A stretch of DNA of 39,647 bases from an uncultured Bacilli bacterium (GCA_944331865.1 CALVIZ010000008.1:1-39647), one strand, 5' to 3'. Positions 19,211 through 23,217 are shown, counted from the first letter of the stretch. Notes: generated by a model from the letters alone, not told the origin. Numbers and translations: made by a program.

Positions 19211-19287
19211 GGCGGAATTGGTGAAGTGGTTAACACGCCGGATTGTGGCTCCGGTATGCATGAGTTCGATCCTCATATTTCGCCCCA
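19211..19287 (+). tRNA. tRNA-His (GTG)
   Basis: The anticodon loop ATTGTGGC gives GTG. The acceptor GCGGAAT pairs with ATTTCGC (one G-U), the extra G-1 (19211) faces C73, as required for histidyl-tRNA, and CCA is encoded at 19285-19287. Confidence 0.95.
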
Positions 19288-19387: not shown

Positions 19388-19681
19388 ATGAATGTGTTCA
19401 TCAAATTTTTAGAATTTCCTTTGTGTGTAAAAAATAAGATATTAAGAATTAAAAATATTACCAAACTAAATATAGAATATGTTGCAGGAAAGAATATCGT
19501 CTTTAATCACTCTAATTTAGGATTAAATGAACCACATAAGATTATCATTAGTAACAATATTCAAAGTATAGTTTTACTTTGTTATGATAATGATTCAAAT
19601 CTGTATAATGAAGATTTATCAGATACTATTACAATAATTGAATTAGCTAGTATAGTTGAGTACTTATTAAAAGAAAATTAA
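19388..19681 (+). CDS. hypothetical 97-residue protein
   Basis: I do not recognise this protein. It is 97 residues, basic in the first third (KNKILRIKNITK), with alternating hydrophobic beta-like strands, an IIISNNIQSIVLLCYDND segment and a helical end (IIELASIVEYLLKEN). There is no signal peptide, metal site or repeat. No good Shine-Dalgarno precedes ATG 19388 (AAAGG lies about 15 bases away) and the start follows the tRNA-His terminator by 27 nt, so expression is uncertain. It could be a remnant or a small regulator belonging to the kinase module downstream. Confidence 0.5.
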   Translation: MNVFIKFLEFPLCVKNKILRIKNITKLNIEYVAGKNIVFNHSNLGLNEPHKIIISNNIQSIVLLCYDNDSNLYNEDLSDTITIIELASIVEYLLKEN

Positions 19682-19787
19682 AAAAATTTTTAAATTTATT
19701 TTTTCTTTTATTTATAAGGGTTAAACAACTGTTTTTAGGTATAATTTTTGAAAATTTGCGAGATATATAGTATTTTGTAGAATTATT

Positions 19788-19796
19788 TGATATAAT
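19788..19796 (+). promoter_or_regulatory. extended -10 promoter for the kinase operon
   Basis: TGATATAAT. The start would be near 19803, so the transcript would open directly into the hairpin at 19811. Confidence 0.65.
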
Positions 19797-19810
19797 ATTT
19801 TTTAGATTTA

Positions 19811-19855
19811 AAGGGCTAGTACAGACTTTAAAAAAGTTTTGTATTGGCCTTTTTT
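19811..19855 (+). promoter_or_regulatory. terminator-like leader hairpin (attenuator) before the kinase gene
   Basis: About 15 bp of stem (19811-19825 with 19838-19852, including several G-U pairs) are followed by Ts to 19855. Only 17 nt separate it from the kinase start, with no room for another promoter, so the kinase needs read-through or antitermination. It could instead be the terminator of 19388-19681 with an undetected kinase promoter. Confidence 0.6.
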
Positions 19856-19872
19856 AGAAGTGGGGTGTTTAG

Positions 19873-21855
19873 ATGAACTTTTCAGGCTCAAATATTAATG
19901 GATATAAATTTATAGAAGTTGTAGGCTCAGGAAGCTTTGGAACAGTTTATAAAGTTGAAAAAGATGGGAAAATCTATGCCGCTAAAGTATTTTCTGAATC
20001 ATTTGTTTTAAAAGAATATAAAGCGGATAGAAATAGAATAACTAATGAAATTGATGCACTTAAAATAGTAGATAGTGATAATTTAGTAAAATATTATGAT
20101 GATTTTGATTATCTTTTAGAATCAGGTTTAAAAACACATATAATTATAATGGAGTTTGTTACTGGGAAAAAACTTACTGACATTATTGACTATATTGACA
20201 ATGATGATCAATTAATTAATCTATTTAAAGATATTTTAAATGCAGTAAAACAACTCCATAGTTATGATATTATTCACAGAGATTTAAAACCAGACAATAT
20301 ATTAATGACAGATGATGGAATAATTAAAGTAATTGATTATGGATTGGTTAAATTAATTGACTTTTCTTCTATTACAAGAACAGGAGATAATATAGGTAGC
20401 CCTATGTTTATGGCTCCAGAACAAATAGTAGATAGTAAACATATAACAACTAAAAGTGATATATATTCTTTAGGAGTAATTTTATATTTAATGTTTACGA
20501 AATCCTATCCATATGATGTTACATCTTTAGAAGAATTAATATATAAAATTATAAATGTTCCCATTGTACCACCATCAGAAAAAAATAACAATATACCAAT
20601 ATATATTGAAAAAATAATATATAAATCATTGGCTAAAAAAGGCTATAATAGATATCAAACAATAGATGAATTCTATAAATCATTTGATGATATTGCAAAT
20701 GCAAATGATATTACTCCTTCAACCTATTATGCGTGGTTAATTAATGAGAAAAAAGTTTATGAAACTTATAAAGAAAGCAAAAACTTGAAATGTATATTTC
20801 CTTTACATCTAAAATATTCACAAAAAGGTTTATACAATTATATGTTAAACAATAAAGATGATGTTATTATAGATCCTTCAACTCAACGTTTTAGTTATGC
20901 TACTTTCTCAAATGTTACAGGATTAGTAAATTTAGCATATAGTCCAAAAACAGGAGTTATGGATTTAGATTATTTAATACAAAAAAATAATCGTGAGGAA
21001 TATATAAGAAATTGGTATAACGAAATATCAGAATTTAATAAAGTTATTTTACCATATCATTATATTAGTAATACAAATTATAAAGCAGATAAAATTGAAG
21101 AATGGATAAAAGTTAATATTCAATTAATAAATGAGAGTATTGATTATATAGAAGAAACCGGCAAGAAATTAGAGACATATGCAATGATATCAATAAATCT
21201 TAATAACTTGATGTATGAAAAAGAAAGATTATTATCTTATTATGTGAATTTAAAAGTTGATAAATATATTGTGCAAATTTCTGATATAAAAAATCCAAAT
21301 GTTCAAAATCTTGCAACATACGTAGAATTTATAAAAACATTACAAATATCAAGTGGTAAGGATGTAATAGCATTAAAAATTTCAGTAGCATTAGGTTTAT
21401 ACTTAATATCAATTGGTGTACATGGCTTTTCATGTGGAATTTCGAATTTAGAATTCTTTGACGAAAATTATATTAAAGATGAAACTGATCCATTTAATTT
21501 ATATGCAAAGTATTATTTTCCACAACTATTAACATTAATGTCATATTATCGTTCTGATGCTTATTCTTTACAAGATATTTACAATGAATTGAATAAATGT
21601 GATTGTAGTTATTGTGATGGTAGAGATTTTGTTGAAATAGCTGCTGAAAAAGATTATAAAATTAAATTACATTTTCTAGAACAAATGGAAAAAGAACTAA
21701 AAAAATTGAATGACATCATTGATGAAAATGAAAAAAAGTGCTATTATGTTAATAGAATAGAAGAAGCAATTAGTAACTTTGAAAGTTTAAAAAATAGTGG
21801 ATTAATAAAGAAATCAGATATCAATGATATACTTTCTATTCTTAAAAGAATATGA
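19873..21855 (+). CDS. Hanks-type Ser/Thr protein kinase with long C-terminal extension
   Basis: 660 residues. The kinase domain (about 8-275) is complete: G-loop GSGSFGTVYKV (18-28), catalytic Lys38 in YAAKVF, HRDLKPDN (135-142), DYG in place of DFG (155-157), GSPMFMAPEQ (175-184) and the DIYSLGVILY helix. It should be active. There is no transmembrane segment or PASTA repeat, so it is not the PrkC cell-wall kinase. The 385-residue extension is of a kind I do not recognise; it has alpha/beta character, a GLYLISIGVHGFSCGISNLEFF stretch in pieces, a CDCSYC cysteine cluster (about 576-581) and a helical end. Downstream, 15 nt away, is a gene with a nuclease-like motif, forming a two-gene unit in an accessory-looking region beside tRNA-His. 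A defence or signalling role is inference. Confidence 0.85.
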   Translation: MNFSGSNINGYKFIEVVGSGSFGTVYKVEKDGKIYAAKVFSESFVLKEYKADRNRITNEIDALKIVDSDNLVKYYDDFDYLLESGLKTHIIIMEFVTGKKLTDIIDYIDNDDQLINLFKDILNAVKQLHSYDIIHRDLKPDNILMTDDGIIKVIDYGLVKLIDFSSITRTGDNIGSPMFMAPEQIVDSKHITTKSDIYSLGVILYLMFTKSYPYDVTSLEELIYKIINVPIVPPSEKNNNIPIYIEKIIYKSLAKKGYNRYQTIDEFYKSFDDIANANDITPSTYYAWLINEKKVYETYKESKNLKCIFPLHLKYSQKGLYNYMLNNKDDVIIDPSTQRFSYATFSNVTGLVNLAYSPKTGVMDLDYLIQKNNREEYIRNWYNEISEFNKVILPYHYISNTNYKADKIEEWIKVNIQLINESIDYIEETGKKLETYAMISINLNNLMYEKERLLSYYVNLKVDKYIVQISDIKNPNVQNLATYVEFIKTLQISSGKDVIALKISVALGLYLISIGVHGFSCGISNLEFFDENYIKDETDPFNLYAKYYFPQLLTLMSYYRSDAYSLQDIYNELNKCDCSYCDGRDFVEIAAEKDYKIKLHFLEQMEKELKKLNDIIDENEKKCYYVNRIEEAISNFESLKNSGLIKKSDINDILSILKRI

Positions 21856-21870
21856 GTAAGGTGATATTAT

Positions 21871-22506
21871 ATGACATTCAAATATGAAAAAGATTTAGTT
21901 AATGAATTGGTTAAAATATTACAAGAAGACTATGATATAAAATATGTTGTAAGAGAATTGCGAAATGGTAAAAATATAGCTGATGTTGTTTATTCAAAAG
22001 AATTACAAAGAAACTTTGCCATATTTGATAAGTATATAGATAGTTATTATTACTTTAATGAAATAATAACAAATAAGAAAAAAAATATAAATGAATTAAA
22101 TATTCAAAATAAAGACTTGTTAAGAAGATTTAAAAAGTTTCTAAAAAAATTAGAAAAAGCTGGATATATAACTATTGAAAACAATAAAATTCACATTATA
22201 AAAAAAGTTGATATAGCATCAAAAAATGTTGTAGCAATAGAAGCAAAACTTAGCGATTGGAAATCTGGGTTAAATCAAGCACTTACATATAAACAATATT
22301 CAGATTATGTTTATGTTGCAATTGATGAATGCTGTTATAAAAAAGTTGATATCGAAATATTTGAAAAGAATAATGTAGGACTTATATTGGTTGGAAAGGG
22401 TCATATTAAAAAAATCCTTAATCCTAAAAAGGAAAAAGATTTTAATGCTGATATAAAGTATTATATGGTTGATAAATTTTTATCTTCTATTAATTCTGTA
22501 GCATAA
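21871..22506 (+). CDS. PD-(D/E)XK-nuclease-like protein, partner of the kinase
   Basis: 211 residues. An N-terminal helix (EKDLVNELVKIL) and IADVVYS strand are followed by a basic helical segment that may be a winged helix (LLRRFKKFLKKLEKAGYITI, about 88-107). Then comes VVAIEAKLSDWKSGLNQAL (about 125-143) with YVYVAID after it. An acidic residue, then E-x-K on the next strand, then a helix with Q-x-x-x-Y is the order of the restriction-endonuclease fold, with Asp at about 39, Glu129 and Lys131 as candidate catalytic residues. No family name can be given. AAGGTGATATT precedes the start; co-transcription with the kinase is clear from the 15-nt gap. It might cut nucleic acid, or be an inactive sensor. 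Confidence 0.65.
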   Translation: MTFKYEKDLVNELVKILQEDYDIKYVVRELRNGKNIADVVYSKELQRNFAIFDKYIDSYYYFNEIITNKKKNINELNIQNKDLLRRFKKFLKKLEKAGYITIENNKIHIIKKVDIASKNVVAIEAKLSDWKSGLNQALTYKQYSDYVYVAIDECCYKKVDIEIFEKNNVGLILVGKGHIKKILNPKKEKDFNADIKYYMVDKFLSSINSVA

Positions 22507-22532
22507 CACATATTGCATTAGTTTTAAAAATG

Positions 22533-22612
22533 ATATATAATTAATCCATCAAGTATTAATTATATACTTTTACTACTTGGGTGCAAAACTCGTTGGTTTA
22601 TTGCCCCATTAA
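22533..22612 (+). other. structured 3' untranslated region of the kinase operon
   Basis: An ATAATTAAT/ATTAATTAT hairpin (22533-22559) and a second stem around GGG-T-GCAA / TTGC-CCC (22580-22606) precede the terminator. They match no RNA family that I recognise. Confidence 0.35.
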
Positions 22613-22619
22613 AGTGATT

Positions 22620-22647
22620 AATTGACTAATTTAAGTCAATTTTTTTA
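22620..22647 (+). terminator. terminator of the kinase operon
   Basis: Perfect 8-bp stem AATTGACT/AGTCAATT with a 6-nt loop and an eight-T run. The following 180 nt to the antitoxin promoter hold AT-rich sequence with no gene that I can support. Confidence 0.8.
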
Positions 22648-22827: not shown

Positions 22828-22856
22828 TTGTATAATTATCATTAATTTGTTATACT
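22828..22856 (+). promoter_or_regulatory. promoter of the convergent antitoxin-type RNA
   Basis: TTGTAT (22828-22833), 17-bp spacer, TATACT (22851-22856) with extended TG at 22848-22849. The start would be near 22863. Confidence 0.6.
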
Positions 22857-22862
22857 ATAAAT

Positions 22863-22936
22863 GAAAGCGTTACCCCTAGTGGATAATGCCTGATGGTGTC
22901 AGACACTATGCCTATTTAGGCTAGTGTCTTTTTTTT
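22863..22936 (+). ncRNA. candidate type I antitoxin RNA, about 74 nt
   Basis: The predicted transcript from the promoter at 22828-22856 ends in a strong terminator: AGACACTA / TAGTGTCT (22901-22908 with 22922-22929), inner GCCT/AGGC, loop ATTT and eight Ts to 22936. Its last bases are antisense to the stop codon of the hydrophobic peptide gene on the other strand, and the rest is antisense to that mRNA's 3' region. No ORF with a ribosome site lies in it. The 5' part (22867-22892) also resembles the 5' end of the toxin mRNA (inverted copy at 23071-23098). Confidence 0.6.
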
Positions 22937-23006
22937 ATATTATTTTAATAATAATTAAAAGTAATATAATTATGATTACTAGAAGTAACATTCTTTCTTC
23001 TTTCAT
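22935..23006 (-). CDS. 23-residue hydrophobic peptide, candidate type I toxin
   Basis: ATG 23006 to TAA 22935 encodes MKEERMLLLVIIIILLLI then IIKII: four charged residues followed by an almost pure Leu/Ile/Val membrane helix with one Lys near the end. The ribosome site is the best in the window (AAAGGAGG, seven bases from ATG), although most genes here use GGTGAT. A TATAAT promoter at 23102-23107 gives a leader of about 90 nt with a GAGTAGT/ACTACTC hairpin, a typical long structured toxin leader. Size, composition, long leader and convergent antisense RNA all fit the Fst/TxpA/BsrG-like type I toxins, which insert in the membrane. Sequence identity to a known family cannot be claimed. Confidence 0.65.
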   Translation of the reverse strand: MKEERMLLLVIIIILLLIIIKII

Positions 23007-23101
23007 CTCTTCGCCTCCTTTTATCGAAAACCCCCATTTAAGAGTAGTTTTAGACTACTCGGATTAAAAGCAGGCACTACCACTAGTAGGTAACAGCGTT
23101 T

Positions 23102-23148
23102 ATTATAAAGATTAATTTTTATTATGCAAGTAATTCGACAAAACTAGA
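23102..23148 (-). promoter_or_regulatory. toxin promoter with shared upstream block
   Basis: Minus strand: TTGCAT (23129-23124), 16-bp spacer, TATAAT (23107-23102). The 25 bases 23148-23124, ending at the -35 box, match 36539-36563 at 24 positions (core CTAGTTTTGTCGAATT), ahead of another promoter with the same -35 and spacing. Confidence 0.65.
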
Positions 23149-23217
23149 TAAAAATATACATAAAAAATAATTTGTGTTATTATAAATAAGTAATAATAAA
23201 AAGAAAAGGGAGAAGAT

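Follow-up and report, generated by a model that had tools for sequence, protein, structure and literature searches.

Organization of the locus

The window analysed here, a stretch of 39,647 nucleotides from an uncultured Bacilli bacterium (GCA_944331865.1 CALVIZ010000008.1:1-39647), carries a two-gene module that is probably an undescribed phage-defence system. The first gene (19873-21855, + strand) encodes a protein of 660 aa, in which a Hanks-type Ser/Thr kinase (aa 1-279) is followed by an unannotated extension (aa 285-660; 20725-21852, + strand). The second gene (21871-22506, + strand), separated from the first by 15 nt, encodes a partner of 211 aa with a predicted PD-(D/E)XK nuclease fold. 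An earlier note on this DNA had proposed such a pair over the span 19388-22647. The two genes and their spacing are as it described, and the span holds both of them, but a 97-aa open reading frame (ORF) at its left end (19388-19681, + strand) is a flanking gene and lies outside the module.

The kinase domain

The kinase residues 11-261 match the Pfam family Pkinase (E=1.1e-46), and the fold closest to the predicted model is that of S. aureus PknB/Stk1 (VIA-align, Z 26.8 across 255 residues). K38, E59, H135-R136-D137, K139, N142, and D155 are invariant among 13 kinase homologues, and likewise T168 and T170 of the activation loop. The features of a Hanks-type kinase, namely the fold, the VAIK lysine, the C-helix glutamate, HRD, and DxG, are all present. 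The kinase therefore looks active, since its catalytic residues and both activation-loop threonines are kept in all 13 homologues, and the active-looking Hanks kinase of the earlier note agrees with the Pfam match, the residue invariance, and the fold. In Petralouisia muris NM01 (L047 4264-6261), the nuclease gene is intact but the kinase gene is split over two reading frames.

The barrel-like extension

The 375 residues that follow the kinase domain (about 285-660) had been described as unrecognised, and they indeed have no match in Pfam, NCBIfam, PHROGs, PADLOC, or PDB sequences. The AlphaFold2 (AF2) model of the whole protein has a mean predicted local distance difference test (pLDDT) score of 74.6, which is lower beyond residue 524, and its secondary structure over residues 284-524 consists of eight alternating strand/helix units. 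Hence the model gives the extension the layout of a (beta/alpha)8 barrel, and it is termed barrel-like; the structural search used the whole kinase model as query and listed kinases only, so the fold of the extension rests on the AF2 secondary structure. The third modelled strand terminates in D334-P335-x-T337, and a conserved zinc-type motif, C576-x-C578-x2-C581 with H600, comes after the eighth modelled unit. The D-P-x-T motif, H396, W411, and the four zinc-type residues are kept in members at ~28% identity, and the motifs are found too in the Priestia, Gorillibacterium, G1011, and G1046 homologues.

Two of these features recall the tRNA-guanine transglycosylases (TGTs), in which strand 3 terminates in an Asp and strand 8 is followed by a zinc site of the form CxCxxC...H. 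The putative zinc site of the extension is placed as in TGT, with a His spacing of 19 versus about 26. The TGT nucleophile Asp of strand 8 is absent from the members read, in which GVHGFSCG, GIHGFSLG, GLYGFESG, and GANTISAG replace DxFDC, and Q338 is lost in L079/L080. A homology to TGT by sequence was considered and rejected, as Pfam (including PF01702), PHROGs, NCBIfam, a PDB profile, and hhalign were all negative; the hhalign comparison to ten TGTs gave E 0.47, which is not significant. Column-shuffled TGT controls scored equally well in the global mode of hhalign, and TGT is thus retained as a resemblance only. As the nucleophile is missing and the profile comparison is not significant, the modelled extension may be called TGT-like in layout, a term that does not imply membership. 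Recruitment of a TGT-type fold to immunity has a precedent in Cap10 of type IV CBASS (PMC11996544).

The nuclease-fold partner

The AF2 model of the partner, built on 13 sequences, has a mean pLDDT of 72.8. Its best structural matches are 3dnx (Z 10.5, 118 residues aligned, 3.6 A), the restriction enzyme PaqCI (10.2), and XisH (9.5), and further matches include EndoMS/NucS (8.6), Cdn1 (7.8), VC1899 (7.5), Card1 (6.4), BsmI, HindIII, and BamHI. The modelled core follows the alpha-beta-beta-beta-alpha-beta order, and the partner is assigned to the PD-(D/E)XK fold on the strength of this model. The earlier note had held that a predicted structure with no nuclease fold would speak against it; such a fold was found.

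The D...E-x-K...Q-x-x-x-Y pattern pointed out in the partner also stands, as E6, D38, E124-x-K126, Q136, and Y140 are invariant among 13 partner homologues. In distant partners the core reads GIPD(I) ... IEVK/IEAK, which is literally PD...ExK. The partner is thereby predicted to be a nuclease with intact active-site residues. Its residues 51-111 (22021-22203, + strand) match winged-helix (wHTH) DNA-binding domains by VIA-align and form an insertion into the nuclease core, between the D38 strand and the E124-x-K126 strand; the 150-aa partners of L003-L005 are without it.

Weak matches to the partner profile in G334, G357, G283, G290, and G407:C132 were set aside as a different PD-(D/E)XK-like family in other gene contexts. 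Most of these proteins start with MKETDLYEP, and they have a C-terminal domain and occur in several Bacilli genomes (L022 6364-7059, L023, L026, and L027). The family is regarded as a distant relative of the partner.

Homologues in fused and split forms

In a scan that took a single genome for each species, 16 loci carry the extension, and their hosts include Bacilli (among them a Haloplasmataceae metagenome-assembled genome, MAG), Lachnospiraceae, Petralouisia, Alkaliphilus, and Gorillibacterium. The pair is conserved across Bacilli, Clostridia, and Paenibacillaceae and on a Priestia plasmid, with identities as low as about 28%, and at every locus with a readable end of the kinase gene the partner gene follows it or is convergent. 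The deeper branches, consisting of the Priestia plasmid and two further genomes of the Lachnospiraceae order, each have the partner as well.

A split version is found in three genomes of the window's family, where the kinase, the barrel-like protein, and the PD-(D/E)XK-like protein are encoded by adjacent separate genes in the same order. The kinase-sized genes match Pkinase with E values of 6e-31 to 2e-36; the barrel-like proteins (403-417 aa, L003-L005) are related to the extension (hhalign E 2e-5); and the PD-(D/E)XK-like proteins have 148-150 aa and no winged helix. Because the parts are fused in one lineage and separate genes in another, this Rosetta-stone link argues that the three would act together. 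One further match, in G068, was discarded as a reading-frame artefact.

Rarity, mobility, and insertion site

Close homologues occur in 2 of the 193 genomes of the window's family, in 4 of 392 genomes of the Lachnospirales-type order, and in 1 of 392 genomes of the Gorillibacterium order, the last being Gorillibacterium itself. The module is rare: no more than about 1% of the genomes in the sampled groups have it. A constant housekeeping position shared by all relatives, which the earlier note named as an outcome against its reading, was not observed; the module is missing in almost all relatives, including congeners that retain the tRNA-His locus.

The block at about 19744-22609 recurs, with 97.3% DNA identity, in a genome from a different genus and marks the transferable unit. 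In the same comparison the neighbouring ORF is 89% identical in both protein and DNA, and the flank with tRNA-His and the 97-aa ORF is 89% identical. Likewise, the kinase of the Haloplasmataceae MAG shares 82% protein identity with a Clostridia kinase and 49% with that of the window. From such sequence comparisons the module is judged to be horizontally mobile. Mobile contexts are seen in the Priestia plasmid, in a conjugative element (L030) with a VirD4-type protein and integrases, and in serine-recombinase elements. No relative was found in the viral-contig scans, and the Priestia partner has no relative in the phage collection.

The proximity to tRNA-His that had been noted is real, as the tRNA gene (19212-19287, + strand) adjoins the insertion site, outside the module. 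Homologues of the 97-aa flanking ORF form the left edge in G029 and L058; its identification as YqfC was dropped, as no Pfam match was obtained. In L058, a broken serine recombinase stands between the homologue of this ORF and the kinase gene, whereas in the window the downstream region of the ORF runs directly into the module. Given this difference, what remains next to tRNA-His in the window is most likely an integrative element that has been trimmed. In the congener G045, an acetyltransferase-like gene occupies the interval instead of the module. A separate insertion site in G029 was proposed and then withdrawn, since its contig end at tRNA-His resembles the start of an element of the L058 kind, and the modules of G029 and the window may be at the same site.

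In G029, the module is flanked on one side by a YunG-uracil-DNA-glycosylase fusion gene and on the other by another glycosylase gene of this kind (L057/L028 928-1824, 4738-5337). Only the last codons of the fusion gene are found at 19744-19768 of the window, apparently as a deletion scar.

Defence genes in the neighbourhood

Selected neighbours of the module copies were scanned with PADLOC models; the neighbours were picked by eye and hence no enrichment statistic is attached to them. For example, AbiEi, AbiEii, LmuA, and LmuB (AbiE and Lamassu) are situated downstream in L046, and in L055 a Gabija-like fragment is upstream and a Mokosh-like protein downstream. The module on the Priestia plasmid neighbours a type III restriction-modification (R-M) system and a UvrD-like helicase, while type III R-M and PDC-S02 are the neighbours in L081. 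The conjugative element of L030 also holds a D12 methylase and a KAP NTPase. In L050, about 40 nt separate the end of an upstream type IIG R-M gene from the kinase gene, and the same R-M gene, by sequence, is directly upstream in L051-L054. The survey of gene neighbourhoods suggested by the earlier note thus finds known defence genes repeatedly beside copies of the module (AbiE, Lamassu, R-M, Gabija-like, Mokosh-like, and PDC-S02). No known defence gene was present in the stretch read of L047, L049, L057, L060, and L082.

The type IIG gene of L050-L054 apparently heads an operon of three genes, followed by those of the kinase and the nuclease. In these loci the module could be guarding against anti-restriction.

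Candidate RNA elements and flanking features

A hairpin with a T run (19811-19856, + strand), terminator-like in appearance, stands directly before the ribosome-binding site of the kinase gene in the window and is kept in L056, L057, and L058 and, with altered sequence, in L059. The window hairpin has a folding z of -6.1, and it is a possible attenuator in the kinase leader.

A candidate small RNA (22548-22646, + strand) has been found 3' of the partner gene, with a layout common to four Bacilli loci. It comprises stem 1 (22551-22569), a conserved single strand, stem 2 (22579-22607), and an intrinsic terminator (22620-22646), and it is preceded in the window by a sigma70-like promoter, TTGCAT-N17-TATAAT (22513-22541, + strand), with a matching arrangement in L057. 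Single sequences fold with z of -3.0 to -4.8, and the four-sequence consensus has a z of -5.7, with none of the 500 column shuffles reaching that stability and with two double-compensatory pairs. The RNA is rated as a candidate, because the sequences are few, their alignment was made by hand, and the covariation term of RNAalifold is unfavourable. It matches no Rfam family, and neither the RNA, sought downstream by eye, nor the leader hairpin was seen in the Clostridia loci.

The toxin-antitoxin-like neighbour that had been reported is also there, as a small-peptide locus downstream of the module. A repeat of 330 bp (window 22828-23154), whose second copy (G000:C9:8440-8770) is 89% identical, encodes a hydrophobic peptide of 23 aa, MKEERMLLLVIIIILLLIIIKII, at 22935-23006 (- strand) with a good ribosome-binding site. 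The repeat has the appearance of a type I toxin locus.

Proposed function and alternatives

With moderate confidence, the module is read as a horizontally mobile immunity module in which a kinase switches a nuclease. A defence role is suggested because defence genes recur as neighbours, and the functional link among the three parts is supported by the existence of fused and split forms. Hypothetically, control would run from the kinase to the nuclease. The kinase with its attached barrel-like domain would detect a sign of infection, the candidate triggers being a phage component or the loss of host restriction or of nucleotide/tRNA integrity. It would then switch on the winged-helix PD-(D/E)XK partner, most simply through phosphorylation or release from a complex, and the nuclease would cut phage DNA, or phage and host DNA together (abortive infection).

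Several points weigh against this immunity reading. In about half of the distinct contexts the stretch read lacks any known defence gene, and in the window, too, none was identified close to the module. The phage-derived and defence-library models cover neither the extension nor the partner, and consequently nothing independent calls the module defence. Several hosts are metagenome bins, in which contig joins can mislead. For the two-gene defence module put forward in the earlier note, the recurrent neighbours and the fused and split forms are favourable, but the likeness to PD-T4-6 and MADS is confined to the kinase domain. A more elaborate version, a four-part system composed of the kinase, a TGT-like sensor barrel that has lost catalysis, a nuclease effector with an internal DNA-binding domain, and the Bacilli small RNA, is offered only tentatively; here the barrel might sense RNA, a nucleobase, or tRNA state, and the small RNA might be the ligand that is sensed, an antitoxin, or a regulator.

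The mobile contexts, i.e., the plasmid, the conjugative element, and the serine-recombinase elements, would also suit an addiction (toxin-antitoxin) module, in which a nuclease toxin restrained by the kinase-barrel protein stabilises the mobile element. KKP, a kinase-phosphatase set, has both functions, toxin-antitoxin and phage defence (PMC11341870), and by this analogy the addiction and immunity readings overlap. However, an apparently active kinase and a conserved extra domain exceed the needs of addiction, and defence genes recur beside the module, which leaves addiction by itself unlikely. Modification-dependent restriction is rated lower still and seems improbable. It would have a transglycosylase-type barrel exchange a base in DNA or tRNA, the nuclease cut unmodified (or modified) nucleic acid, and the kinase tune the process, and it draws on the modelled barrel order, the strand-3 Asp, the zinc-type motif after strand 8, and the R-M neighbours. 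Yet the strand-8 nucleophile is missing in all members read, with Q338 lost in two, no profile match to PF01702 or real TGTs was obtained, and no deazapurine genes were noticed adjoining the loci read. The least probable account, given very little credence, is a host regulatory or stress module unrelated to infection, for example in DNA-repair signalling. PD-(D/E)XK folds do serve repair too, as the match to EndoMS/NucS illustrates, but the rarity of the module, its mobile distribution across classes, and its defence neighbours are at odds with such a role.

Comparison with known systems

The extension, the partner, and their combination are unnamed in the searched libraries, and a literature search that covered only a minority of subscription papers and preprints gave no description of them. 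The module has a Hanks-type kinase domain in common with Stk2, PD-T4-6, and mad6 of MADS. PADLOC models match over about residues 1-300 of the kinase protein (mad6, E=6.6e-58, residues 6-279; PD-T4-6, 2.8e-57) and end at the kinase domain, whereas the module adds the barrel-like extension and a nuclease partner at every readable locus. In contrast to the stand-alone kinases of PD-T4-6 and Stk2, its partner is adjacent wherever the end of the locus is readable, and the mad1-mad8 set of MADS was not seen among the ORFs around the window and its relatives. KKP (PfkA-PfkB-PfpC) of prophages is likewise a phosphorylation-based mobile defence or toxin-antitoxin module (PMC11341870), but in the present module a nuclease is found and no phosphatase, CSD, or FHA.

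Effectors of the Card1/Can2 type and Cdn1 share the PD-(D/E)XK fold (Z scores given above for Cdn1, VC1899, and Card1); unlike them, the partner has no CARF domain, carries a winged helix inside the nuclease core, and has a kinase as companion. The sce7726/sce7725 pair (NF033832/NF033831) is comparable in make-up, with two genes encoding a PD-(D/E)XK-like and a Beta_protein-like protein, but the pair read has no kinase. Partners of L046 and L003 match sce7726 with E=5e-5 and 1.6e-5 (23.3 and 24.9 bits, against a curated cut-off of 70 bits), while the window partner has no match to sce7726 and the extension none to sce7725. A real sce7726/sce7725 pair with a third gene is located in L088 6067-8940 (G591), downstream of an rlmH-like ORF; no described function of the pair was found. 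With the TGT family, including Cap10 of CBASS (PMC11996544), the extension as modelled has the barrel order and the zinc-type motif in common, but it has neither the nucleophile nor detectable sequence homology, and no CD-NTase or QueC-like gene was seen.

Kinase-based defence and PD-(D/E)XK effectors are thus already known kinds. The module would add to kinase-based defence a protein domain outside present classifications and possibly an RNA component. Few phage-defence systems that use kinases are known, and the coupling of kinases to effectors in bacteria is mostly open. In this module the coupling can be read in the genome, with kinase, barrel-like domain, and nuclease either fused or encoded as neighbouring separate genes, and it offers a testable pathway from trigger to kinase to nuclease with catalytic residues that can be mutated.

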